Notes under the pieces: model-generated
What the model saw: only the letters and a program-made list of their open reading frames with translations
What the model was told of the DNA's origin: nothing
Database searches by the model: none
Part shown: in pieces, positions 36,467 to 62,337 of the stretch
Layout of the letters: each line of letters opens with the position of its first letter
Numbering within the stretch: the stretch's first letter is position 1
Translations under genes and position numbers: made by a program
NCBI RefSeq assembly: GCF_000378045.1
Contig: NZ_KB899095.1
Coordinates: 141,873 to 205,872 of the forward strand
Source of the DNA: Marinobacterium rhizophilum DSM 18822
GTDB lineage: Bacteria > Pseudomonadota > Gammaproteobacteria > Pseudomonadales > Balneatricaceae
Direction: 5' to 3'
DNA length: 64,000 nt

Positions 36467-36649
36467 CTAGCAGCCTGTCGGACTTGGCCGATCGTAACGA
36501 GGGAAAGACCGGTTTGCGGCAGTTTTTGAGCTCTTTTGAGGCGAATAGTGGTTCTATTTAACAAAAAAGAACTCAGAAAATGACCCCTCTTTACTGGAGA
36601 GAATCGGCTTTTCCGCAGTAGATCAGTGGTAAATCCGACAGGCTGCTAG
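36467..36649. mobile_element. MITE-like element, copy 1
   Basis: A 183-bp segment bounded by CTAGCAGCCTGTCGGACTT (36467-36485) and AAATCCGACAGGCTGCTAG (36631-36649), which are inverted repeats matching at 18 of 19 positions. The interior has no coding frame. An inverted, longer relative lies at 62047-62337 and shares interior stretches such as AGTGGTTCTATTTAACA and GGCTTTTCCGCA. The right end overlaps the stop codon of the ureohydrolase gene (TAG lies within the terminal CTAG). The structure fits a non-autonomous transposable element. Confidence 0.75.
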
Positions 36650-42434: not shown

Positions 42435-44738
42435 GTGAGCCAGCTGCCAACCACCCGCAACCAGCGCATTCTGGTGGTCGACGATACCCCGTCGATTCAC
42501 CAGGATTTCCAAAAGATACTCGGTGGCAGCCCGGATAATCAGGACGCACTGGCGTCGGCCGAGGCCGCGCTGTTCGGCGATGTGGCCGTACAGCGAGAGT
42601 GCTTCGAACTCGAGTCTGCATTTCAGGGGCAGGAAGCCCTGACCAGGGTCGTCGCGGCGCTGGAGCAAAAGCGCCCCTATGCCATGGCCTTCATCGACAT
42701 GCGCATGCCTCCCGGCTGGGACGGCCTGGAAACGATTGAGCGCCTCTGGCAGGTCGACCCTCGGCTGCAGGTTGCCCTCTGTACCGCCCACTCCGATTAT
42801 TCCTGGGAACAGATGGCGGAACGCCTGGAGTTGGGAGACCGACTGCTGATTCTGAAGAAGCCGTTCGACAGCATCGAGATTCGTCAGATGGCCAGCGCCC
42901 TGACCGTGAAGTGGCAAATGACCCAGGACGCAGCCTTCAAGATGAGCTGCCTGGAGCAGGCCGTTGAGGAGCGGACCAAGGAGTTGTCGGACGCCAATAT
43001 CATCGTTCAGAACAGCCCAACGATACTGTATCGCCTGCGTGGCGAACCCTCCTTTCCGCTGATGTACATCTCCCACAACATCACCAAGTTCGGCCACGAT
43101 GCCGCCGCGCTGGTGGCATCACCCGACTGGGCGCAAGTGCTGATCGATCCCGACGATCGCGCCATGGTCGATACAGCCATGGCGCGAGTACTGGATAAAG
43201 ACGCCCAGGGCGCCTCGATCGAGTTTCGTCTACGCACCGGCGATGGAGCTCACCGCTGGGTCGAGAACCGCTATATTCCGGTGCGCGGCAAGGACGGCCG
43301 GCTCATTGAAGTCGAAGGCATCATTCTCGATGTCACCGAGCGCAAGGTCGCAGAAGAGAAAATCGCGCTGCTCGCCCGCACCGACGGACTCACCGGCCTG
43401 GCCAACCGCGCGACCTTTATCGAACGACTCAGCCAGGCCTTCGCCGCCAGCAAACGGGGCGCTACAGCATTCGCCATTTTTTACCTGGACCTCGATCACT
43501 TCAAGCAGGTCAACGATACCCTGGGCCACCCGGTGGGCGACCTGCTGCTGCAGGAAGTTGCGGTACGCCTGGGGAACTGCACCCGCAAGAATGATGTGAT
43601 CGCGCGCCTGGGCGGCGACGAATTCGCCATACTGCAAATGGACATGAACGAGCCGGCAAACGCCGCCGTACTGGCGGCCAAGCTGCAAACCACGCTGGCG
43701 CACCCCTACCAGCTCAACGGCAACGAGGTGCGCATCTCGGCCAGCATCGGCATCTGCCCGTACGCACCCGGCAGCACCGCAGCAGACGCCATGCTGGCAC
43801 AGGCGGACCTGGCGCTCTACCGCTCCAAGGAAGAAGGCCGCAACCAGTACCACTTTCATTCCGAGGATCTCGATCAGGAAGTGTTCGACCGGGTAACGCT
43901 GGCGAACGATTTGCGAACAGCGATGGAACAGAACGAGCTGGAGCTCTATTACCAGCCGGAGGTGGAACTGTCGACCGGAAAAATCCTCGGCATGGAAGCA
44001 CTGGCGCGCTGGAACCACCCCGAGCACGGCCTGCTCAACGCCGACGCCTTTATCCCCATTGCCGAGAAGACCGGCGCCATCGTGGCGCTCGGCCATTGGG
44101 TACTCGAACAGGCGTGCCAGCAAATGCACCGGTGGCGCAACCAGGGCACGGCGCCACCGGTGATCACGGTCAATCTGTCGCTGGCACAGATCAAAAGCGG
44201 CGACGAGCTGGTGCGGGATGTCTCCGCCACCCTCGCCAAATGGGGGCTGCAACCATCCGATCTGAAGTTCGACGTGACCGAAGCCACGCTGGCACAGACC
44301 AAATGGACTCGTAATGACGTACTGCCACAACTGCGCGAACTTGGCGTGAAGATCGCCATAGACGATTTCGGCACCGAATACTCGTCGTTCGACTACCTCA
44401 AGACCTATCGCGTGAACCACCTCAAGATTGCCCAGACCTTCATTAACGCGGCCACCGACGACGCCGACAGCGCCACGACGGTCCGTGCCATCATCAACTT
44501 TGCCCGCGAGCTCGGCATCGGCATCATCGCCGAAGGCGTCGAAACCAAGGAACAGCGCGCCCTCCTGATCTCGGCCGGTGCCACAACGCAGGCGCAGGGC
44601 TTCTACTTCAGTGAAGCGGTAGACAGCCGCCGCGCCAGCGAACTGCTCCAGTGCGGCAGCATCCTGCCGAATAAGCTGAGTGACCCGGCACCCGACTCCA
44701 CCAGCCTACCGAAAACACCGCCAAAGGGAGTCCCATGA
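42435..44738 (+). CDS. Response regulator with PAS, GGDEF and EAL domains
   Basis: A 767-residue c-di-GMP enzyme. The receiver domain (about 10-160) has acidic Asp16/Asp17, phosphoacceptor Asp88 in FIDMRMPPGWDG, Thr117 and Lys in LKKPF. It carries an extra segment of about 30 residues after helix 1. A coiled linker leads to a PAS domain (about 190-310), then a GGDEF domain with intact RLGGDEF and inhibitory I-site RKND five residues before it. The EAL domain keeps GMEALARW, the Asn in VNLSLAQ, DDFG and EGVE, but the usual LKID is LKIAQ and DDFGTGYS is DDFGTEYS, so phosphodiesterase activity may be weak or lost. The start is GTG with GGGAG upstream. It overlaps the next gene by 4 bases. Confidence 0.93.
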   Translation: MSQLPTTRNQRILVVDDTPSIHQDFQKILGGSPDNQDALASAEAALFGDVAVQRECFELESAFQGQEALTRVVAALEQKRPYAMAFIDMRMPPGWDGLETIERLWQVDPRLQVALCTAHSDYSWEQMAERLELGDRLLILKKPFDSIEIRQMASALTVKWQMTQDAAFKMSCLEQAVEERTKELSDANIIVQNSPTILYRLRGEPSFPLMYISHNITKFGHDAAALVASPDWAQVLIDPDDRAMVDTAMARVLDKDAQGASIEFRLRTGDGAHRWVENRYIPVRGKDGRLIEVEGIILDVTERKVAEEKIALLARTDGLTGLANRATFIERLSQAFAASKRGATAFAIFYLDLDHFKQVNDTLGHPVGDLLLQEVAVRLGNCTRKNDVIARLGGDEFAILQMDMNEPANAAVLAAKLQTTLAHPYQLNGNEVRISASIGICPYAPGSTAADAMLAQADLALYRSKEEGRNQYHFHSEDLDQEVFDRVTLANDLRTAMEQNELELYYQPEVELSTGKILGMEALARWNHPEHGLLNADAFIPIAEKTGAIVALGHWVLEQACQQMHRWRNQGTAPPVITVNLSLAQIKSGDELVRDVSATLAKWGLQPSDLKFDVTEATLAQTKWTRNDVLPQLRELGVKIAIDDFGTEYSSFDYLKTYRVNHLKIAQTFINAATDDADSATTVRAIINFARELGIGIIAEGVETKEQRALLISAGATTQAQGFYFSEAVDSRRASELLQCGSILPNKLSDPAPDSTSLPKTPPKGVP

Positions 44739-46636
44739 ATCAGCAAGCCAGCGGTGGCAACCGCCGCATCCTGGTGATCGATGACAATCCCGCCATCCAT
44801 CGGGACTTCCGCAAGATACTCGATCCGGGTCCCGACAAAGATGAGGCTCTCGCCCTGTCCGAGGCAGCCCTGTTCGGCACGACCCGCGTTGCGCGCCCGA
44901 CCTATGAGCTTGATTTCGCGTTTCAGGGGCAAGAAGCGCTGAACATGGTCGAGCACGCGCTGCAGGACGGCAGGCCCTATGCCATGGCATTTATCGACAT
45001 GCGCATGCCACCCGGGTGGGACGGCGTCGAGACCCTGGAATACCTCTGGCGGGTCCAACCGCTGTTGCAGGTTGCCCTCTGTACCGCCCACTCCGATTAT
45101 TCCTGGGAAGAAATGGCGGAACGTCTTGATCTGGGAGACCGGCTGCTGATCCTGAAAAAGCCTTTCGACTCCATCGAAATTCGCCAAATGGCCAGCGCGC
45201 TGACGGCAAAGTGGCAGATGTCACAGCATCTGGCCCTAAAAATAGACAGGCTGGAAACAACCGTTGCGCAAAGTGCTTCCGCGCTGCAGGAAATGACCCG
45301 TCTGCTTCACTACGACGACCTCACCGGCTTGCCAAATGCCGCATTACTGCAGGATCGCATGGCGCAGGCGCTGGCCATCGCCGCCCGGCAGCACAAAAGC
45401 CTGGCAGTGATGTACATCGGTCTTGACCGCTTCAAGCTCATCAACAATGCCCTGGGGCACCCGGCCGGCGATGCATTGCTCATAAAGGTTGCTGAATGCC
45501 TGGTGGCAACGGTGCGTAAATCCGACTCCGTTTTCCGCTACGGCGGGGATGAATTCGTGATTGTGCTGCCCGATTTGGTACTCCCGCAACAGGCCATTTA
45601 TGTTGCAAACAAGCTACTGACCACACTCAGAAAGCCGCGATCCATCCAAGGGCAGAACCTCAATACCACCGCTAGTCTGGGTATCAGTACCTATCCGAAC
45701 GATGGCGATAATGCGGATGATCTGGTCGCTAATGCGGAAACCGCGATGCACAATGCCAAAGAAAATGGCCGTGATGATTTCCAGTTTTACAATCCGGCTA
45801 TCAACCTGCGTGCCCGCGAGCAGCAATCGATCGAAGCCGGGCTGCACACCGCCCTGGAAAAGCGGCAATTCACCCTGTTCTACCAGCCGAAGCTGAATCT
45901 CGAAACCGGGACGATTACCGGCGTCGAGGCACTGATCCGCTGGCAACATCCGGAGTGGGGAGCTGTGTCCCCCGCCCAATTTATTCCTGTCGCCGAGTAC
46001 GGTGGCCAGATTATACCGATCAGCCGCTGGGTGGTGCGTGAGGCCTGTCGCCAGGCCAGAGCCTGGCGGCAAGCCGGGCTGCCACCACTGATCATGGCGG
46101 TCAATATCTCCGCCGTCGAGTTTCGACAGCCGGGTTTCCTGGAGAGTATTCGTACGGTCTTGCAGGAAACCCGGCTGGAACCTCGCTTGCTCGAGCTCGA
46201 GCTCACGGAAAGTGCTCTGATTCAAAATATCGAGTTTACGGTCTCGATCCTGCTGCAACTCAAGGATCTGGGCGTGCGGATCTCCATTGATGACTTTGGC
46301 ACCGGTTATTCCAGCCTGAGTTATCTGAAGCAGTTTCCAGTCGATGTACTGAAAATCGACCAGTCCTTTGTGAAGGATATCGGCAAACCGGATAGTGACG
46401 CCATCGTCAGCGCCATTATCAGCATGGGCCAAAGCCTCAGGTTTAAAATCATCGCCGAGGGCATCGAAACACGGGAACAGCTGGACTTTCTGCAAGCCCG
46501 CCAGTGTGAAGAAGGCCAAGGCTATTACTTCAGCCGGGCGGTGACCGCTGAGGCATTTGCCGCGCTACTGGCAGGCGGCATAACGGTGGGGGCGGAAGAT
46601 GAGGGTGGCCCGCCGGTCTGTGAACTCCATCGATAG
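44735..46636 (+). CDS. Response regulator with GGDEF and EAL domains
   Basis: A 633-residue protein with a receiver (about 10-160) almost identical in sequence to that of the preceding gene, including the phosphoacceptor Asp88 in FIDMRMPPGWDG and the TAHSDYSWE and ILKKPFDSIEIRQMASALT stretches. There is no PAS domain. The GGDEF domain has RYGGDEF and the I-site RKSD. The EAL domain is canonical: GVEALIRW, VNISAVEF, LTESAL, DDFGTGYSS, VLKIDQSFV and EGIETREQ, so phosphodiesterase activity is likely. The paired receivers suggest that both proteins are addressed by the same kinases. The 4-base overlap with the upstream gene points to translational coupling. Confidence 0.94.
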   Translation: MNQQASGGNRRILVIDDNPAIHRDFRKILDPGPDKDEALALSEAALFGTTRVARPTYELDFAFQGQEALNMVEHALQDGRPYAMAFIDMRMPPGWDGVETLEYLWRVQPLLQVALCTAHSDYSWEEMAERLDLGDRLLILKKPFDSIEIRQMASALTAKWQMSQHLALKIDRLETTVAQSASALQEMTRLLHYDDLTGLPNAALLQDRMAQALAIAARQHKSLAVMYIGLDRFKLINNALGHPAGDALLIKVAECLVATVRKSDSVFRYGGDEFVIVLPDLVLPQQAIYVANKLLTTLRKPRSIQGQNLNTTASLGISTYPNDGDNADDLVANAETAMHNAKENGRDDFQFYNPAINLRAREQQSIEAGLHTALEKRQFTLFYQPKLNLETGTITGVEALIRWQHPEWGAVSPAQFIPVAEYGGQIIPISRWVVREACRQARAWRQAGLPPLIMAVNISAVEFRQPGFLESIRTVLQETRLEPRLLELELTESALIQNIEFTVSILLQLKDLGVRISIDDFGTGYSSLSYLKQFPVDVLKIDQSFVKDIGKPDSDAIVSAIISMGQSLRFKIIAEGIETREQLDFLQARQCEEGQGYYFSRAVTAEAFAALLAGGITVGAEDEGGPPVCELHR

Positions 46637-46746
46637 GGGCATTTCCAGGTGGTGTAAAGCGGCGCCGGGCCGTTCCTGGCGACGCACGTAGGTTAAGCAA
46701 CACAGGGCCGCCATTCATATTTGGTCAAGAGTAAGGAAGAACCCGA

Positions 46747-47706
46747 ATGCCCATGCGTTCTCTGTCATGTAGCCTGGCGTTGCTGCTCCTGCTGCCGACC
46801 CCGTTGAGCGCCTCCCCGCGGCATGAACCGATCACGCCAATTTCCCCGATTCGAACCGCAGACCCGGCGCGGACCGAGCTGGGTAAGCAGCTGTTTCACG
46901 ATGTTCGCCTTTCTGCCGACAACAGTGTGGCATGCGTCAGCTGCCACGATCTGAGCCGCGGCGGTGCCGACAGCCGCGCCCATTCGCTGGGCATCGGTGG
47001 CAAGCCGACCGCCGTGAATACCCCGACCGTGTTCAATGCGGCGCTGAACTTCAGGCAGTTCTGGAACGGCCGCGCCGACTCGCTGGAGGCCCAGATTGAT
47101 GCTGTGATCGAGAACCCCGATGAAATGGGCTCAAAATGGCCGGACGTGGTCGCCAAGCTGGTACAGGACGCCAACTACAAGGCGGCTTTCAGCCTGGCTT
47201 ACCCCGACGGGGTGACACAGGCCAATATCCGCAACGCGATCGCAACGTTCGAGCGTACGCTGCTCACCCCAGACTCCCCCTTCGACCGCTATCTGCTGGG
47301 TGATGCCGACGCCATCAGCGCCGACGAAAAGGCCGGGTATCTGAAATTCAAGCAATACGGCTGCGTTGCCTGCCATCAGGGGGTGAACATTGGTGGCAAC
47401 ATGTACCAGAAATTTGGCGTCATGGGGGACTACTTCAAGCAACGCGGTAACCCGACCGACGCCGACCTGGGCCGTTTTCTGGTCACCCGGAACGAAGAAG
47501 ACCGGCACGTTTTCAAGGTGCCAAGCCTGCGCAATGTTGCACTCACCGCGCCCTACTTTCACGATGCGTCGGCCAGAACGCTGAAGGACGCCGTCGATGT
47601 CATGTTCAGGTACCAGCTGGGCCGCGCCGCGTCGCAGGAAGACAAGGCGTCGATCATCCGCTTCCTCAAAACGCTGACCGGTGAGCTGAGGGGTAGCCTG
47701 CAATGA
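46747..47706 (+). CDS. Secreted dihaem cytochrome c peroxidase family protein
   Basis: A 319-residue periplasmic protein with a signal peptide (MPMRSLSCSLALLLLLPTPLSAS, cleavage near residue 23). Two haem c sites are present: CVSCH near residue 60 and CVACH near 210, with the family segments NTPTVFNAALNFRQFWNGRA and VPSLRNVALTAPYFHDAS. Family members reduce hydrogen peroxide with electrons from small cytochromes, or carry out MauG-like oxidations. Its last four bases overlap the start of the membrane histidine kinase gene, so it may deliver a redox or peroxide cue to that kinase, or remove the signal. Confidence 0.92.
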   Translation: MPMRSLSCSLALLLLLPTPLSASPRHEPITPISPIRTADPARTELGKQLFHDVRLSADNSVACVSCHDLSRGGADSRAHSLGIGGKPTAVNTPTVFNAALNFRQFWNGRADSLEAQIDAVIENPDEMGSKWPDVVAKLVQDANYKAAFSLAYPDGVTQANIRNAIATFERTLLTPDSPFDRYLLGDADAISADEKAGYLKFKQYGCVACHQGVNIGGNMYQKFGVMGDYFKQRGNPTDADLGRFLVTRNEEDRHVFKVPSLRNVALTAPYFHDASARTLKDAVDVMFRYQLGRAASQEDKASIIRFLKTLTGELRGSLQ

Positions 47707-49517
47707 AAAAGTCCTTACAACGGCGTATGGCCATCCTGGGGCTGGTATTCGCGACGCTGCTGGTGTTTCTGTACATCAAGAACCCGGCGCATGACGCCAC
47801 GCCCTACTTCGAAAGCATCGCGCTGTTGCGCCAGATCAAGCAGCTGGATGCCCGCCGGGAGCTCGACGCAGTGAAATCGAAGCTAGGCGTAAACAGCAGC
47901 TATGACCCGCTGGTCAACGCGCTCAGCGAGCTGGACACACTGCGTGGGCAAGTGAATCAGCTCGGCATCCAGCAACTTCAGGCCACCCCGGCCGACTGGG
48001 ACCGCAGTTTCGGCGCCTACCGTGACACGGCTGAATACAAAACCGGCCTGATAGAACAGTTCAAAACGCATAATGCGGTGTTACGCAACTCCCTGGCTTT
48101 TCTGCCTACAGCGGCCAGCGATATCCGCAATGTGATTCTCCCTATGGCCCACCAGGAACAGGACGAAAACCGCGAGGTGCTGGAACAGCTGACAGCGCAG
48201 GTGGACGGCGTGTTACTGAACAGCCTGGTCTTCAGCCAGTCCGCCACCGACGGCCAGGTGTCGGAGATCCTCACGGGTCTGGATAAGCTGGCCGCGGTGT
48301 CTATGTCGCTACCCCCCGCCGTCACTGACGGGCTGGACATCTTCATGGCCCATGTGCGCACCCTGATAGCCGAGCATAATCGGGTGAACGAGCTTCTGAG
48401 CACAATTGCTGCGGTGCCGGTCGCGGCGCACATTGACGATCTCGAGTACCTGCTCAGCAGCGTAGAACAGAAGGCCATAGCACGCACCCAGCAGTATCGG
48501 CAATACCTGCTCCTCCTCTCCGCCGTACTGGCGGGCCTGCTGCTGTACCTGGCCAGTCGGCTGGTACGCAGCTATGCGGTGATCAACCGGGTCAATCAGC
48601 AGCTCAAGGCCGCCAACGACAACCTGGAACAGCGGGTGCAGGATCGTACCCTCGAACTTCAGCAGGCACAGGGCAAACTGGTGGACTCTGCACGCCAGGC
48701 AGGCATGGCGGAAATCGCCACCAATGTGCTGCACAACGTGGGAAATGTGCTCAACAGCGTGAATATCGCGGCCGACCAGGCCATGCGTCAGGTGCGCACG
48801 TCCAAGGTCCAGGGCCTGGCCAGGGCCATGCAGATGCTGAATCAGCACGCCACGGATCTGGGCGAGTACATCACCCAGGACGAGAAGGGCAAGCTGCTGC
48901 CGGGATACCTGAATCAGCTGACTGAGGCACTGCAGGCCGAACAGCAAAGCATCCTCAACGAGCTTGGGCAGTTGACCCACAGTGTCGACCACATCAAGGA
49001 GATCGTCTCCACCCAGCAGGCCTATGCGGGCGCCGCCAACCTGGTCGAACCCCTGCAGATAGACAGTGTGATCGAGGATGCCCTGCGCATGAACAACAGC
49101 GCGTTCACCCGTCATCAGGTCACCGTGGTCAAGCAATTTTCCGAGGTACCGGTCCTGTTACTGGACAAGCACCGGCTGCTGCTGATCCTGATCAACCTGA
49201 TCAGCAATGCCAAAAATGCGATGGCCGACCCGGCCGGGCATGCCCGCACCCTGACCCTGAGCGTGGCCATGGTCGACACGGCCACACTGCAGATCGGCGT
49301 GCAGGACGATGGCCAAGGCATTGAACCGGACAACCTGACGCGCATTTTTAATCATGGCTTCACGACCCGCAAGGATGGCCACGGCTTCGGCCTGCACAGT
49401 TGCGCGGTAGCGGCGATGGAGATGGGCGGCAATTTGACAGCCCACAGCGATGGACCGGGTAAAGGCGCCGCCTTTGTGCTGGAGCTGCCGGCCCAGGCCG
49501 TGCAGGAAATGCCATGA
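47703..49517 (+). CDS. Membrane histidine kinase with large periplasmic helical sensor (DAHL-like)
   Basis: A 604-residue kinase. One membrane helix near residues 8-24 and a second near 268-290 enclose a periplasmic region of about 240 residues, predicted all-helical and resembling the DAHL sensor fold. A coiled coil (LKAANDNLEQRVQDRTLELQQAQ) leads to the phosphoacceptor region GMAEIATNVLHNVGNVLNS, where the His of LHNVGN is the likely site, then the ATPase domain with N-box INLISNAKNAM, G1 VQDDGQGIEP and G2 DGHGFGLHSCAVAAMEMGG. From residue 325 onward it is nearly identical to the soluble kinase encoded at 50785-51879. No receiver is attached, so the GGDEF-EAL regulators encoded upstream are the likely partners. 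Confidence 0.9.
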   Translation: MKKSLQRRMAILGLVFATLLVFLYIKNPAHDATPYFESIALLRQIKQLDARRELDAVKSKLGVNSSYDPLVNALSELDTLRGQVNQLGIQQLQATPADWDRSFGAYRDTAEYKTGLIEQFKTHNAVLRNSLAFLPTAASDIRNVILPMAHQEQDENREVLEQLTAQVDGVLLNSLVFSQSATDGQVSEILTGLDKLAAVSMSLPPAVTDGLDIFMAHVRTLIAEHNRVNELLSTIAAVPVAAHIDDLEYLLSSVEQKAIARTQQYRQYLLLLSAVLAGLLLYLASRLVRSYAVINRVNQQLKAANDNLEQRVQDRTLELQQAQGKLVDSARQAGMAEIATNVLHNVGNVLNSVNIAADQAMRQVRTSKVQGLARAMQMLNQHATDLGEYITQDEKGKLLPGYLNQLTEALQAEQQSILNELGQLTHSVDHIKEIVSTQQAYAGAANLVEPLQIDSVIEDALRMNNSAFTRHQVTVVKQFSEVPVLLLDKHRLLLILINLISNAKNAMADPAGHARTLTLSVAMVDTATLQIGVQDDGQGIEPDNLTRIFNHGFTTRKDGHGFGLHSCAVAAMEMGGNLTAHSDGPGKGAAFVLELPAQAVQEMP

Positions 49518-49631
49518 GACAGCATCGGCGTTGCCCGTCGGCAGGGACGCACAGTGGCTCAAACGAATGCGCAGGCACAGCCAGCCTGATCCGCTCAGGC
49601 AGCTGAGTCGTTTTAAACCCAGGAGTGCATC

Positions 49632-50792
49632 ATGGAGCAGCAGAATTACATACGCAAAGCGCAGTCCCACGCCACCGACCCGCACGAGGCCGCGCAGGAA
49701 TTCCATGCCCTGGTGGCGCAACCCGACATGGCGCTGGTGATCTTCTACTGCTCCAACCAGTACGATCTGGACGCGCTCGCCGATACCATGCAACGTCTGT
49801 TCGCCGGCGTGCAGGTCGTCGGTTGTACCACGGCCGGAGAAATCGGCCCTGCCGGCTGCCTGGAACACAGCCTGACCGGAGCCAGCTTTGCGGCGAGCCA
49901 TTTCAGCGTTACCTGCGGCCATCTCGAACATTTGCAGCAATTCAATGCCGACAAGGGCGAGGCCTTCGCCCACGCATTGCTGCACAAGCTGCACGCCCAG
50001 GTCCCGCACAGCGACACGAACAACAGCTTCGCGCTGCTGCTGATCGATGGTCTGTCGATGCGCGAAGAGCCGGTAACCCGGGCATTCCAGCGCGCACTGG
50101 GCAAGCTACCCCTGATCGGCGGCTCGGCAGGTGACGACTTGGCGTTTGTCGAGACCCAAGTCTATTGGCAGGGCCAGTTCTGTTCCGACAGTGCTATTCT
50201 GGTTCTGCTGAGCACCCCTGTGCCCTTTCGGATTTTCAAGACACAGCACTTCGTTGCCACGGACGAGCGACTGGTGGTCACGGAGGCCGATGCAGCGTCC
50301 CGCGTCGTCAGGGAGATCAACGGACTGCCGGCCAGCCAGGAATACGCCCGAGTTTTCGGGATCGATACCTGCGCCCTCGATCCCATGCGTTTCGCAGCCT
50401 GGCCCGTGGTCTTGACGATCGGTGGCACGCCCTACGTGCGCTCCATCCAGAAAGCCAACCCGGATGGCAGCCTGACGTTTTTCTGCGCCATCGAGGACGG
50501 ACTGGTGCTTCGGCTCGGGAAGGGCGTGGACCTGCTGCAAAACCTGGAACTGACGTTTGCCAGAATTCGGGCCGAAATCGGCCCGCCCTTGCTTACCCTG
50601 GGCTACGACTGCATCCTGCGCAAACTGGAGATTTCCGAAAGCCCCGACAGGCAGCGCATCGGCGAAGTGCTGATGCAGAACAACACCGTCGGCTTCAACA
50701 CCTACGGCGAACAGTTCCGCGGCGTGCATGTCAATCAAACGCTGGTCGGAGTCGCGATAGGCGCACACACGCTGGAGACGAACGATGCCTGA
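49632..50792 (+). CDS. FIST-domain sensor, NosP-like
   Basis: A 386-residue soluble protein with FIST-N (about 20-220; LVIFYCSNQYDLDALADTMQ, VVGCTTAGEIGPAG, LLLIDGLSMREEPVTRAF, LIGGSAGDDLAF) and FIST-C (about 225-370; VVREINGLPASQEYARVFG, FFCAIEDGLVLRLGKG, LGYDCILRKLE). FIST proteins encoded beside a histidine kinase gene include NosP, a haem-binding nitric oxide sensor that inhibits its partner kinase and so adjusts c-di-GMP and biofilm behaviour. The gene overlaps the downstream kinase by 8 bases, exactly that arrangement. Whether this protein binds haem or a small molecule cannot be seen from sequence. Confidence 0.88.
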   Translation: MEQQNYIRKAQSHATDPHEAAQEFHALVAQPDMALVIFYCSNQYDLDALADTMQRLFAGVQVVGCTTAGEIGPAGCLEHSLTGASFAASHFSVTCGHLEHLQQFNADKGEAFAHALLHKLHAQVPHSDTNNSFALLLIDGLSMREEPVTRAFQRALGKLPLIGGSAGDDLAFVETQVYWQGQFCSDSAILVLLSTPVPFRIFKTQHFVATDERLVVTEADAASRVVREINGLPASQEYARVFGIDTCALDPMRFAAWPVVLTIGGTPYVRSIQKANPDGSLTFFCAIEDGLVLRLGKGVDLLQNLELTFARIRAEIGPPLLTLGYDCILRKLEISESPDRQRIGEVLMQNNTVGFNTYGEQFRGVHVNQTLVGVAIGAHTLETNDA

Positions 50793-51879
50793 GCCAACGG
50801 TACGCCAGGACCAGCCGGCTGAGCGATCCAGCGAGAGCGAAATCATTCGGCTCAACAAGATCATCCGCGCCCTGATGGACCGCGCCGAACGCAGTGCCAA
50901 TGCCCAGGGCTCTGACTTTGGCCTGTTCCAGACCACGGTAATGCTGGAGGAGCTGGTGGCCAGCCGCACGGAGGAGCTGCAAACCGCCCTGGACGAGAAC
51001 GAAGACATCACCCAAAAACTGCGCCAGACCCAGGGCGATCTGGTTGAATCGGCGCGTCAGGCAGGCATGGCGGAAATCGCCACCAACGTGCTGCATAACG
51101 TCGGCAATGTTCTCAACAGCGTAAATATCGCGGCCGATCAGGTCATAAATCAGGTGCGCTCATCCAAGGTCCAGGGTTTGGCCAGGGCCATGCAGATGCT
51201 GAATCAGCACGCCGCGGACCTGGGCGACTACATCACCCATAACGACAAGGGCAAACTGCTGCCGGGATACCTGAACCAGCTGACCGAGGCGCTGCAGGCC
51301 GAACAGCAATTCATCCTCGACGAGCTTGGGCAGTTGCTTCTCAGTGTCAACCACATCAAGGAGATCGTCTCCACCCAGCAGGCCTATGCGCGCACCTCCA
51401 CGCTGGTCGAACCCTTGCGGGTCAGCGACCTTATCGAGGACGCGCTGCGCATGAACAACAGCGCGCTCGACCGCCACCGGGTCACGGTGGTCAAGCACTT
51501 TGCCGAGGTTCCGGTCCTGTTACTGGACAAGCACCGGCTGCTGCTGATCCTGATCAACCTGATCAGTAATGCCAAAAATGCGATGGCCGACCGGGCCGAG
51601 CATGCCCGCATCCTGACCCTGAGTGTGGCCATGGTCGAGACCGACACACTGCAGATCGGCGTGCAGGACGATGGCGAAGGTATTGAGCCGGACAACCTGA
51701 CACGCATTTTTACCCATGGTTTCAGCACCCGCAAAGATGGCCACGGCTTCGGCCTGCACAGTTGCGCGGTGGCGGCAATCGAGATGGGCGGCAATTTGAC
51801 GGCCCACAGCGATGGACCGGGCAAGGGCGCCCTGTTTACCCTTGCGTTACCCTGCGAGACAGAAGAGAGCACACGATGA
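50785..51879 (+). CDS. Soluble histidine kinase, partner of the FIST protein (NahK-like)
   Basis: A 364-residue kinase without membrane helices or PAS domain. An N-terminal coiled coil (about 20-95; EIIRLNKIIRALMDRAE, TTVMLEELVASRTEELQTALDE) leads to GMAEIATNVLHNVGNVLNSVNIAADQ, with the phosphoacceptor His in LHNVGN, and then to the ATPase domain with INLISNAKNAM, VQDDGEGIEP and DGHGFGLHSCAVAAIEMGG. The first residues of the coiled coil resemble NahK-type kinases co-transcribed with NosP. The catalytic half is nearly identical to that of the membrane kinase, at both protein and DNA level. Likely targets are the two receiver-GGDEF-EAL proteins. Confidence 0.92.
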   Translation: MPEPTVRQDQPAERSSESEIIRLNKIIRALMDRAERSANAQGSDFGLFQTTVMLEELVASRTEELQTALDENEDITQKLRQTQGDLVESARQAGMAEIATNVLHNVGNVLNSVNIAADQVINQVRSSKVQGLARAMQMLNQHAADLGDYITHNDKGKLLPGYLNQLTEALQAEQQFILDELGQLLLSVNHIKEIVSTQQAYARTSTLVEPLRVSDLIEDALRMNNSALDRHRVTVVKHFAEVPVLLLDKHRLLLILINLISNAKNAMADRAEHARILTLSVAMVETDTLQIGVQDDGEGIEPDNLTRIFTHGFSTRKDGHGFGLHSCAVAAIEMGGNLTAHSDGPGKGALFTLALPCETEESTR

Positions 51880-58612: not shown

Positions 58613-61600
58613 TCAGTTTGCAGTCTTCTGCGGGCCCAACTGCTCGAGCAGCGCTCTGGCCGCCCGCAGGTCAACCGTATCGAAACCTTCATCAAAACCC
58701 TTGTAACGGGCGGCCAGCAACTCGTGGGCTTCCTTCTGCCTGCCCTGCTGCTGCAGCAGCCGGGCCGAATCCATCGCCGCCCGCAGCTCCAGCGAACGGC
58801 TTCCCTGTTCACCCGCCAGGGCGATGGCCTTTTGGAAGCAGGCCTGGGCTTCTGAAGGCTGCGGCAGCCTGAACAGGCCCTGCAGCCGGTACAGCTCGGG
58901 CGCATAAAAGTTTTCCCCGGTCTGCTCGACGATGGCCAGGGCGTCATCGACTACCGCCAGCGCCGCGTCCACCTCTCCCGACTTGCCCAGGGATTCCGCC
59001 AGTAGCGCCATAAAGTAGGGTTTGAGGAACTCGCCACCGGTTGCCTGGTAATCCAGCATGCCCTGGCGAATGGCCGCTATGCCCTCGGCCGGCTGGCCCT
59101 GCTCGGCCAGGGTCCAGCCCCGCACAATGCTGGCGCGTGCGCGCCAATAGGGAAAACTTTGTTCGGTCGCCAGTACGATGACAGACTCGGCCCACTCCCG
59201 GGCCTGTGCCACTTCACCGCGCAGCTGATGCAACTCGGCCCTATAGATCATCGGATCGGCCAGGGTATAGGGATTGGGCGCCTGCTGTGCCAGCTCCAGC
59301 GCGTCCAGGCACCGTTGCAGCGCCTGGTCGGGATAACCGCGATACCATAGCGCCCAGGCACCGATCATCAGCCCCAGGATCCCGGGTTCAATACCGTACA
59401 GATACGTATGGTTGCCATGCTCGTGCGCATCATAGAGCGCAAGCACCTGCGCACAGTGCTCCTGCGCCTCCTGCAGCTGTCCCCGAAACAGCAAGGTCGC
59501 GCCCAGAGCGCCATGGGCCTGTACCCGCAGCGCCGGATCCGAGGCAGATTCTGCCATTGCCAGTAACTGCTCGGCCATCGTCTGGGCAGCGCCGAAATCG
59601 GCCCGCAGGGTATAGAAGCGCCGCAGCGCGACCAGGGCGGAAAACAGCTGCCCGCTGTCACCCAGCTCACGTCCCAGGCTTAGGGCCCGGGAAAAGCTCG
59701 CTTCAACCTCGGAAGCGCCAAACCCCCGGACAGCCATCCAGACGTGGCCCTGGGTGATCTGCAGTCTGAGCTCAAACCGCATTCGCTGCGTGGTATCCGG
59801 CAGTCTTGGCAGCAAGCCTTGCGCCCGGGTGAGGTGCGCCAGAGCCTCCTGGGCGGCAGAGCGGCGCATCGCCTGCTCTGCGGCGCGCAACAGATACTCC
59901 ACCGCCTTGCCGGCATTGCCGCTGCAGCTGTAATGGTGGGCCAGCTCGCTGCAGTGGTCGTTCAGACTGTCACCGAACAGTGCCTCGATCGCCAAGGCCG
60001 TGCGTTCATGCAGTTGGCTGCGGCGTTCCTGCAGCAGCGAACCATAGGCAACTTCCTGGGTGAGGCCATGCTTGAAGGTGTACTCGACCTCGGGAAAGGC
60101 CGGCCGCTCATAGAGAAACTCCCCGGCCTGCAAGCGGGACAGCCCGCGCTTGAGGGCGTCCTCCGGCGGCCCGACCACCTGCTGCACCAGGCTCCAGGGG
60201 AAGTCCTTGCCGATCACCGCGAGGGTTTGCAGCAATGCCTTCTCCTCCATGGCCAGGCGGTCGATGCGCGCACTCAGCACACCCTGCACCGTGGTGGGTA
60301 TGTGCAGATCGGCGGGTGCCCGCTGCAGGCGATAGGCGCCCGGCTCCCCGCTGAGCACTTGCTCCTCGGCCAGGGTCTGCACCACTTCTTCCAGGAAAAA
60401 GGGATTGCCCTCGGTCTGCTCCATGATCAGGGGCTTGAGCGGCGCCAGCGACGCATCCTCTCCCAGCAGGGCCGACAGCAGCTCCTCGGCCTCCACCGGG
60501 CCCAGCGGATCCAGCCGCAACTGGGTGTAGCAGCTTTTCTGGCCCCAGTCATGCTGATACTCGGGTCGGTAATTCACCAGCAACAGCATGCGGGCCCCGG
60601 CCACCCCGTCGCTGAGCACCCGTAAAAAGGCTTCGGTCTCGCGATCAAGCCATTGCAGATCCTCGAAGACAAGCACCAGCGGCTGATCGAGACTCTCGTG
60701 CACCAGCAACTGTCGAATGGCCTCGAAGGTACGCTGGCGCCGAACCTGTCCATCCATCTGTCCCAGCGACGAATCCGGTTCGGCCGCGCCCAGCAGGTAA
60801 TACAGATAGGGCAGGCTGCCCTCCAGGGTGCGGTCCAGCGTCAGCACCTTGCCGGTGATTTTCTCGCGACGCTGCCGCTCGTCGTCCTTAGGACCGATCT
60901 GCAGGTAGTTTTTCAGCAGCTCGATCAGCGGCAGGTAGGCAAAGGCCTTGCCGTGGGATACCGAAAAGGTTTCCAGTACCCGGCACGGCTGCTGGCCACG
61001 CTGCTTGAACTCGTAAAAGAGCCGCGACTTGCCGACACCCGGTTCGCCCACCACACCGACAATCTGCCCATGGCCGGCACAGGCCTTGTCCAGCGCCCGT
61101 TGCAGCTGCGCCAATTCGGCCTGACGACCGACAAAGCGTGCCAGGCCACGGTGTGCCGCCACTTCCAGCCGGGTACGCAGGGCGCCGAGGCCCTGCAGTT
61201 CATATACCGCCAGCGGCTCGGACAGCCCCTTGACCCGGGTACCCCCCAGCGCCTTGAAATCAAAGTATCCCTCGGTCAGCCGGTAGCTGGGCTCGCTGAC
61301 CAGAATGGTGCCGGGAGTGGCGATCCCCTCCATGCGGGCGGCAATGTGAATGGTATGGCCCACCGGGTCATAATCCGTGTGCAGGTCATCGGTACGAATT
61401 CCCCGCACCACCACTTCACCGGTATGGATGCCGATGCGCACCTGCAGCACATTGCCCTGCTCAAGCCGGATGCGGTCACTGTGATGGCGTATCGTTTCCT
61501 GCATGCGCAGTGCCGCATAAAGCGCGCGCCGGGGATGGTCCTCATGGGCAATGGGGGCGCCGAACAGGGCCAGAATGCCGTCACCGAGTGACTTGGCGAC

Positions 61601-62026
61601 ATAGCCCTCGTAATGGTGCACGGCCTCCATCATCAGCTCGAGGACCGGGTCGATCAGATGACGTGCCTCTTCAGGATCCAGGTCCTGGATCAGCGCCGTG
61701 GAGCCGCTCATATCCGCAAACAGCACGGTGATGGTCTTGCGCTCGCCGCCGCTGTCGCCGCGGGCCTGCCGGGCGCTTTGCTCGACCAGGATACGTTCGG
61801 CCAGGTGGGGCGGCGTGTACTGGATAGGTGCCGGCGCCACCGGGGCGGGACGGGTGGCGGCCGCGACCGGCGCATCGCCCAGCGAGGTGCCGCAGGCATT
61901 GCAGAAGCGGGCGGCGGAACTCACCTCCTGACCGCACTGCGGACAGCAGCGCGCCATTCGCGCGCCACAATGCTCGCAAAATCGGGCGCCTGTCGCATTG
62001 TCTTGCCCACAATCAGCACAGCGCAT
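58613..62026 (-). CDS. Adenylate/guanylate cyclase - AAA ATPase - TPR regulator
   Basis: An 1137-residue multidomain protein. Residues 1-46 form a double zinc ribbon (Cys3/6/17/20 and Cys28/31/42/45). A class III nucleotide cyclase domain follows (about 95-275), with metal aspartates Asp105 in LFADMSGST and Asp149 in KSLGDGILALFG, and RIGIHTGEVV. The predicted ATPase (about 298-600) has Walker A GEPGVGKS (327-334) and a Walker B-like LVLVFEDLQWLD. The C-terminal half is helical, with TPR-like repeats. This architecture links a cyclase to a STAND-type NTPase switch and is common in bacteria with rich signalling. The ligand and whether the product is cAMP or cGMP are unknown. Confidence 0.92.
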   Translation of the reverse strand: MRCADCGQDNATGARFCEHCGARMARCCPQCGQEVSSAARFCNACGTSLGDAPVAAATRPAPVAPAPIQYTPPHLAERILVEQSARQARGDSGGERKTITVLFADMSGSTALIQDLDPEEARHLIDPVLELMMEAVHHYEGYVAKSLGDGILALFGAPIAHEDHPRRALYAALRMQETIRHHSDRIRLEQGNVLQVRIGIHTGEVVVRGIRTDDLHTDYDPVGHTIHIAARMEGIATPGTILVSEPSYRLTEGYFDFKALGGTRVKGLSEPLAVYELQGLGALRTRLEVAAHRGLARFVGRQAELAQLQRALDKACAGHGQIVGVVGEPGVGKSRLFYEFKQRGQQPCRVLETFSVSHGKAFAYLPLIELLKNYLQIGPKDDERQRREKITGKVLTLDRTLEGSLPYLYYLLGAAEPDSSLGQMDGQVRRQRTFEAIRQLLVHESLDQPLVLVFEDLQWLDRETEAFLRVLSDGVAGARMLLLVNYRPEYQHDWGQKSCYTQLRLDPLGPVEAEELLSALLGEDASLAPLKPLIMEQTEGNPFFLEEVVQTLAEEQVLSGEPGAYRLQRAPADLHIPTTVQGVLSARIDRLAMEEKALLQTLAVIGKDFPWSLVQQVVGPPEDALKRGLSRLQAGEFLYERPAFPEVEYTFKHGLTQEVAYGSLLQERRSQLHERTALAIEALFGDSLNDHCSELAHHYSCSGNAGKAVEYLLRAAEQAMRRSAAQEALAHLTRAQGLLPRLPDTTQRMRFELRLQITQGHVWMAVRGFGASEVEASFSRALSLGRELGDSGQLFSALVALRRFYTLRADFGAAQTMAEQLLAMAESASDPALRVQAHGALGATLLFRGQLQEAQEHCAQVLALYDAHEHGNHTYLYGIEPGILGLMIGAWALWYRGYPDQALQRCLDALELAQQAPNPYTLADPMIYRAELHQLRGEVAQAREWAESVIVLATEQSFPYWRARASIVRGWTLAEQGQPAEGIAAIRQGMLDYQATGGEFLKPYFMALLAESLGKSGEVDAALAVVDDALAIVEQTGENFYAPELYRLQGLFRLPQPSEAQACFQKAIALAGEQGSRSLELRAAMDSARLLQQQGRQKEAHELLAARYKGFDEGFDTVDLRAARALLEQLGPQKTAN

Positions 62027-62046
62027 GGGGCTTTTATGTCCTCCGC

Positions 62047-62337
62047 CTAGCAGCCTGTCGGACTTAACACTTATCTACTCGACTCGGGCATCCTGCTTCG
62101 CCCTACCTCCTGCATCCATGCAGTCGTGCGGAAAAGCCGCCTCTCTCCGGAAAAGAGTGGTCATTTTTCGCGCTCTTTTTTACTCGTCGCAGGCTCCTCG
62201 GTCTGCGACCCCGCTAAAGCGGTTCTTTCCACTTCGTTCCAAGTGTTAAATAGAACCACTATTCGTCTCAAAAGAACTCAAAAACTACCCCAAAACGGAC
62301 TTTCCCTCGCTACGACCGGCCAAGCCCGACAGGCTGC
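62047..62337. mobile_element. MITE-like element, copy 2 (inverted, longer)
   Basis: It starts with CTAGCAGCCTGTCGGACTT (62047-62065) and ends with AAGCCCGACAGGCTGC. The right-hand 90 bases read in reverse complement match the left part of copy 1 (36467-36649), including GAGGGAAAG, AGTTTTTGAG and AATAGTGGTTCTATTTAACA. The left part matches copy 1's right part around GGCTTTTCCGCA. It has about 110 bases of extra interior sequence, including a GTCGCAG/CTGCGAC hairpin. The right end lacks the CTAG. It lies in the 504-base gap upstream of the cyclase gene; the remainder of that gap (62338-62530) holds no gene. Confidence 0.7.

Follow-up and report, generated by a model that had tools for sequence, protein, structure and literature searches.

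A dihaem peroxidase paired with DAHL-domain receptors, a candidate periplasmic co-receptor, beside a NosP arm in Marinobacterium rhizophilum

Introduction

TorT is the periplasmic binding-protein partner of TorS. A six-gene locus (g1–g6) of Marinobacterium rhizophilum DSM 18822, at positions 42435–51879 on the forward strand of a 64,000-nucleotide (nt) stretch of contig NZ_KB899095.1 (the whole of which is called the window here), recalls that arrangement, as a gene for a predicted periplasmic partner (g3) lies beside that of a membrane sensor (g4) whose DAHL domain may, on a tentative fold model, resemble TorS sensor domains. It differs in that the partner is a dihaem peroxidase of the CCP_MauG family, not a binding protein, and in that the outputs of DAHL receptors vary, being either kinase or GGDEF-EAL.

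Three further systems are close to parts of the locus. HbpS–SenS–SenR of Streptomyces couples a membrane kinase to a secreted protein that modulates it in redox stress (PMC4991794; citations of this form refer to parts of the papers). The likeness is that of a secreted protein and a membrane kinase under redox stress, but g3 belongs to a different protein family, and the Streptomyces system is actinobacterial and has a transcriptional output, not one in cyclic di-GMP (c-di-GMP). The likeness to NosP–NosK–NosR (PMC12570481) lies in g5, which passes a NosP model, in the adjoining sensor-less kinase g6, and in c-di-GMP regulators in the same row; the differences are that the kinase core here is common to a membrane DAHL kinase, and that two REC-GGDEF-EAL proteins and a peroxidase stand in the row. 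Classical bacterial cytochrome c peroxidases (CCPs), such as MacA and the N. europaea CCP, share both haems, Trp, Glu and the Met ligand with g3, whereas g3 and nearly all of the DAHL-linked set lack the switch His and the dimer-interface Trp. Release of this distal His is the reductive activation of classical CCPs (PMC10094543).

In the open literature searched, which included parts of PMC3770913 and PMC7726332, no description of the peroxidase–sensor pair was found, although a description in other wording would escape such a search. The same limit holds for the DAHL domain combined with histidine kinase, for which no paper was found, and LRNSL combined with histidine kinase likewise returned none; 'DAHL domain' itself occurred only in an alignment-methods paper, in the part available. 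A term search of the main text of a 2022 review of c-di-GMP sensing gave no 'peroxid' or 'cytochrome'. Here we propose, with a probability of roughly 0.58, that the secreted peroxidase serves as a periplasmic haem co-receptor for the DAHL domain, and that a second kinase under NosP feeds the same receivers in g1 and g2.

Results

The peroxidase g3 (46747..47706, +, 319 amino acids (aa); Pfam CCP_MauG) and the DAHL histidine kinase g4 (47703..49517, +, 604 aa; Pfam DAHL and HATPase_c) overlap by 4 nt. The score of g4 against the DAHL family PF19443 is 150.6 bits (cut-off 38), and its DAHL domain (47793..48500, +) is all-helical by prediction. Searches for the Pfam DAHL family covered 116 genomes from the same taxonomic family, 274 from the class and 398 from the phylum Pseudomonadota; of the 153 loci scoring above the cut-off, 148, from 121 genomes, were analysed (those left out are G083:C169, G455:C28, G544:C24, G574:C262 and G611:C163). 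At 135 of the 148 DAHL loci a separate CCP open reading frame (ORF) lies directly upstream on the same strand, the CCP profile having been trained on the same set that was scored. The peroxidase/DAHL-kinase pair, pointed out in an earlier sequence-only reading of the window, is thus confirmed far beyond it. The two frames overlap in 122 of the 135 pairs, of which 91 share exactly 4 nt and 20 share 1 nt; as DAHL starts are unannotated, the in-frame start closest to the end of the CCP frame was chosen, a choice that favours overlap. Since the 22 DAHL genomes chosen for comparison contain 78 CCP_MauG match rows, or ~3.5 per genome, an adjacency so constant cannot, on these counts, be a matter of chance.

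The best PDB matches of g3 are bacterial CCPs (E 3e-82 to 5e-60), which span nearly the whole mature protein. Its N-terminus is hydrophobic and signal-peptide-like, and a hydrophobic stretch precedes haem 1 in 127 of the 135 DAHL-linked CCPs. In the alignment, g3 keeps two CXXCH motifs, the electron-transfer Trp, the catalytic Glu and the Met ligand, and has Ile at the position of the distal switch His. The DAHL-linked set was compared with 41 other CCP ORFs from 21 of the 22 chosen genomes (G149, with fragmented genes, gave none). Both CXXCH motifs are kept in 133–135 of the 135 DAHL-linked CCPs and the Met ligand in 131, and the distal His is present in at most three, those likely misaligned, compared to 11 of the 41 controls. 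Its position is mostly occupied by Val, Ile or Ala, and 129 of the 135 have Met without His. The dimer-interface Trp near the distal His is absent in g3 and is mostly Gly across the set. Of the 135, 103 retain the catalytic Glu, 29 have another residue there and 3 show a gap; 35 of the 41 controls retain it.

A CCP tree that included the controls was built by FastTree, with 58 of its 174 branches weakly supported. The DAHL-linked label changes twice on this tree, compared to 37.7 times for shuffled labels, and one branch (support 72) unites all 135 DAHL-linked CCPs with a single control, L232. This control (G005:C1) has no adjacent DAHL gene; a GGDEF ORF lies upstream of it on the same strand.

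The pairs are also faithful to one another. CCP and DAHL distances correlate with a rho of 0.39 over 133 pairs, while 200 shuffles reach at most 0.11. Upon exchange of partners within the 17 multi-pair genomes, the mean fit was 0.21, and none of 300 trials reached the observed 0.34. The outputs behave differently: on the 133 pairs, 56 are kinases, 58 are GGDEF proteins and 19 are unassigned, and the CCP tree implies 14 or more switches between kinase and GGDEF, with 70 of the 148 DAHL proteins extending past the available stretch, so that outputs are under-read. A specific CCP–DAHL interface with exchangeable outputs would give both the fidelity and the swapping.

Hydrophobic stretches flank the DAHL domain in g4, as they do in 130 of the 135 pairs. 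A fold model of the domain made from two sequences (predicted local distance difference test score, pLDDT, 75; predicted template modelling score, pTM, 0.58) matched McpS (E 1e-4), PilJ (1.7e-3) and TorS (6e-3) in Foldseek with TM-scores of 0.33–0.62, and TorS–TorT complexes were among the weaker matches. The modelled fold thus appears to resemble the sensor domains of McpS, PilJ and TorS, with a moderate fit. A search for PDB sequence relatives of DAHL gave 13 weak matches (best E 0.018), none of them convincing. An AlphaFold model of g3, also from two sequences, had a pLDDT of 34.7 and was unusable.

These data bear on two other explanations of the pair. In the first, g3 would serve only to detoxify the periplasm, and the DAHL receptor, co-transcribed for oxidative stress, would bind a small ligand of its own. 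It would be natural for an enzyme and a stress sensor to share an operon, g3 retains both haems, Trp, Glu and Met, and McpS, the best fold match, has been solved with malate and succinate bound, according to the titles of its PDB entries. We nonetheless think this unlikely, as the fixed-order overlap in 122 of 135 pairs, the grouping of the CCPs and the pairing fidelity among paralogues are hard to explain in this way, and so is the substitution of Glu in 29 CCPs (with 3 more gapped) whose haem sites persist. In the second, the link would be chemical, the peroxidase making or destroying a small ligand or oxidising a DAHL residue without forming a docked complex. The CCP/MauG family does include enzymes that modify partner proteins, such as MauG, which carries a Tyr ligand (PMC6405878). 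A MauG-type enzyme was considered for g3 and rejected, because g3 has Met where MauG has Tyr. We find a chemical link quite improbable: g3 has Met and not the Tyr that stands in its place in 20 of the 41 control CCPs, the 29 Glu substitutions speak against it, and among 53 aligned DAHL sequences a single column, an Asp, is invariant, which leaves no fixed Trp or Tyr as a target. A co-receptor that docks on the DAHL domain would accommodate these observations better.

Two candidate lines of evidence were set aside. At L109 (G114:C1), CCP, DAHL and GGDEF share one open frame of 777 codons, either a fusion or a frameshift. The frame departs from the usual CCP sequence near the CCP end, and a hydrophobic stretch between CCP and DAHL fits poorly with both being periplasmic; because of the possible frameshift, the locus was dropped as proof of interaction. 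An LRNS motif was rejected as a mark of CCP-linked DAHL domains, as it is too variable: its loose form occurs at 58 of the 135 DAHL loci that have a separate CCP and at 2 of the 13 that do not.

The second arm of the locus begins with g5 (49632..50792, +, 386 aa; Pfam FIST and FIST_C), one of two NosP-like genes in the source genome, which scores 458.6 bits against the NCBIfam NosP model NF041558 (cut-off 450). With a kinase next to it and c-di-GMP genes in the same row, the NosP–kinase–c-di-GMP layout suggested from the sequence alone holds. The kinase g6 (50785..51879, +, 364 aa) matched only ATPase-domain families in Pfam (HATPase_c) and has no Pfam sensor domain. Its peak hydropathy over 17 residues is 1.74, compared to 2.65 and 2.38 in g4, and a membrane segment in g6 is unlikely on this measure. 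It had been called NahK-like; that identity was rejected, as g6 scores 34.9 bits against NF041831 (cut-off 1500), and a NosK-type label fits better.

The kinase cores of g4 (48655..49469, +) and g6 (51017..51831, +) form a direct repeat with 88% DNA identity over 818 nt, and a 30-residue block around the H-box is 97% identical in protein sequence, in agreement with the earlier view that both kinases carry the same catalytic core. Relatives of the N-terminal ~85 aa of g6 follow NosP in two other genomes, G015 (with PAS-GGDEF) and G057 (with a kinase). Given these N-termini behind NosP elsewhere and the shared core, g6 looks like a composite, with a NosP-partner head joined to the core of the DAHL kinase. 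At the G015 locus (L278) NosP is followed by the g6-like N-terminus with PAS-GGDEF, from which output swapping may extend to NosP partner heads. The g1 and g2 receiver domains align without gaps and are closely similar. As the two kinase cores are nearly identical, both inputs probably converge on the REC-GGDEF-EAL proteins g1 and g2.

In M. sedimentorum (same genus, G032), orthologues of g1–g4 are present with 91, 85, 89 and 83% identity, and neither NosP nor a second kinase was found at the orthologous locus. The 3′ end and flank of its g4 match the 3′ end and flank of g6 in the window, which suggests a recent event: either NosP and one core were lost in M. sedimentorum by core–core recombination, or the cassette was inserted in M. 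rhizophilum. In the same order, g1–g4 are kept in G506 and g2–g4 in G660 and G683, with NosP not adjacent. A conserved six-gene module was therefore rejected: the recurrence of the peroxidase–kinase pair beside FIST genes, proposed as a check on the sequence-only reading, is not seen in relatives over the stretches searched, and it is the peroxidase–DAHL pair itself that recurs. Judged by gene order, the peroxidase–receptor pair is the basic and widespread unit, and the six-gene layout is not. In G506 and G660 (L267, L269) a REC-HisKA-HATPase protein directly follows the DAHL kinase, at the place of NosP. The lone other FIST match in those stretches lies near a weak DAHL kinase without CCP at L165 (G492:C90), a second and different meeting of DAHL and FIST.

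The same comparison raises the question of whether the NosP and peroxidase arms are functionally separate, being neighbours through recent rearrangement, each kinase with its own receiver. The lack of g5–g6 at the M. sedimentorum locus, the flank match indicating recent loss or gain, and the five of seven genus genomes that have no DAHL match are all in keeping with this. The 97% identity of the H-box blocks, the 88% DNA identity of the cores and the close similarity of the two receiver domains argue the other way, and we consider separate arms to be on the unlikely side, and shared receivers the better account.

The first two genes encode a REC-PAS-GGDEF-EAL protein (g1, 42435..44738, +, 767 aa) and a REC-GGDEF-EAL protein (g2, 44735..46636, +, 633 aa), both by Pfam. 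In g1 the receiver Asp, GGDEF with an RxxD I-site and the EAL motif were all found, and it reads LKIAQ at the position where g2 reads LKIDQ; every motif checked in g2 is present. All six ORFs and their domain types, as first read from the sequence, were recovered with Pfam in agreement. Three of the five junctions overlap, as had been noted (g1/g2 by 4, g3/g4 by 4 and g5/g6 by 8 nt), and the gaps at g2/g3 and g4/g5 are 110 and 114 nt. As a simple scan found no sigma-70-like or terminator-like site in either gap, a single operon is plausible; the firmer earlier statement of one coupled operon stands to that extent.

Elsewhere in the window, an interspersed intergenic repeat occurs at 62041–62337 and about 36470–36649, without an Rfam match at the gathering threshold; no RNA family reached that threshold anywhere in the 64 kb. 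The source genome contains 79 pieces matching the repeat, many of them partial, and M. sedimentorum carries repeat-like stretches as well, one of them lying shortly downstream of its g4 gene. A gene at 58613–62026 (−) encodes a 1137-aa protein with zinc ribbons, a class III nucleotide cyclase domain, an AAA_16 ATPase and tetratricopeptide repeats.

Discussion

From the recurrent pair we infer a mechanism that involves docking, a ligand, phosphotransfer and a change in c-di-GMP of one sign or the other. The secreted dihaem CCP, lacking the His that would close its active site, would dock on the periplasmic DAHL domain of the membrane receptor. Its peroxidatic haem would react with peroxide or another haem ligand and the protein would change shape; alternatively, the periplasmic cytochrome pool may trigger the shape change by reducing the electron-entry haem. 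DAHL would relay the state of the CCP to whichever output is fused inside, here a histidine kinase. In the cytosol, NosP would control g6, with almost the same catalytic core as g4, and both kinases would phosphorylate g1 and g2, thereby setting c-di-GMP.

Several observations weigh against this proposal. Thirteen of the 148 DAHL loci have no separate upstream CCP ORF; at four of these (L017, L163, L166 and L159) the available upstream sequence is shorter than 1 kb, one is the single-frame locus L109, and eight truly lack a CCP, six of them with weak DAHL matches (48–63 bits) and two at 87 and 99 bits. Met without His is also found in 10 of the 41 controls, so that the loss of His is not special to the DAHL-linked clade. 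With the catalytic Glu retained, 103 of the 135 CCPs, g3 included, may well be working peroxidases. Overlapping genes that are inherited together give correlated trees on their own, and such simple linkage would account for part of the correlation. The DAHL model was built from two sequences, and matches come easily to long helical folds. For the NosP arm, a DAHL match is present in two of the seven genus genomes, and no NosP was found beside other CCP–DAHL loci in 161 stretches (median 1.5 kb downstream of DAHL), most of which reach 1.5 kb either side, such that distant NosP neighbours could escape.

A wider version of the co-receptor proposal is more tentative, and we hold it to be possible rather than probable. 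The whole CCP clade may have turned from detoxification to haem co-receptors whose outputs can be exchanged: without the switch His, the active-site haem would be permanently open, Glu is changed in 29 of 135 with the haems kept, and DAHL would read the state of the haem protein. In the window, one kinase core would then serve both a periplasmic haem sensor and cytosolic NosP, weighing oxidants or nitric oxide on both sides of the inner membrane into one c-di-GMP decision.

The proposal predicts that, for the 135 pairs, removal of the upstream peroxidase would leave the downstream sensor deaf. If it is correct, the DAHL domain would acquire both a partner and a probable type of signal, peroxide or redox state in the periplasm would be linked to c-di-GMP, and part of a large enzyme family would shift from detoxification to sensing.

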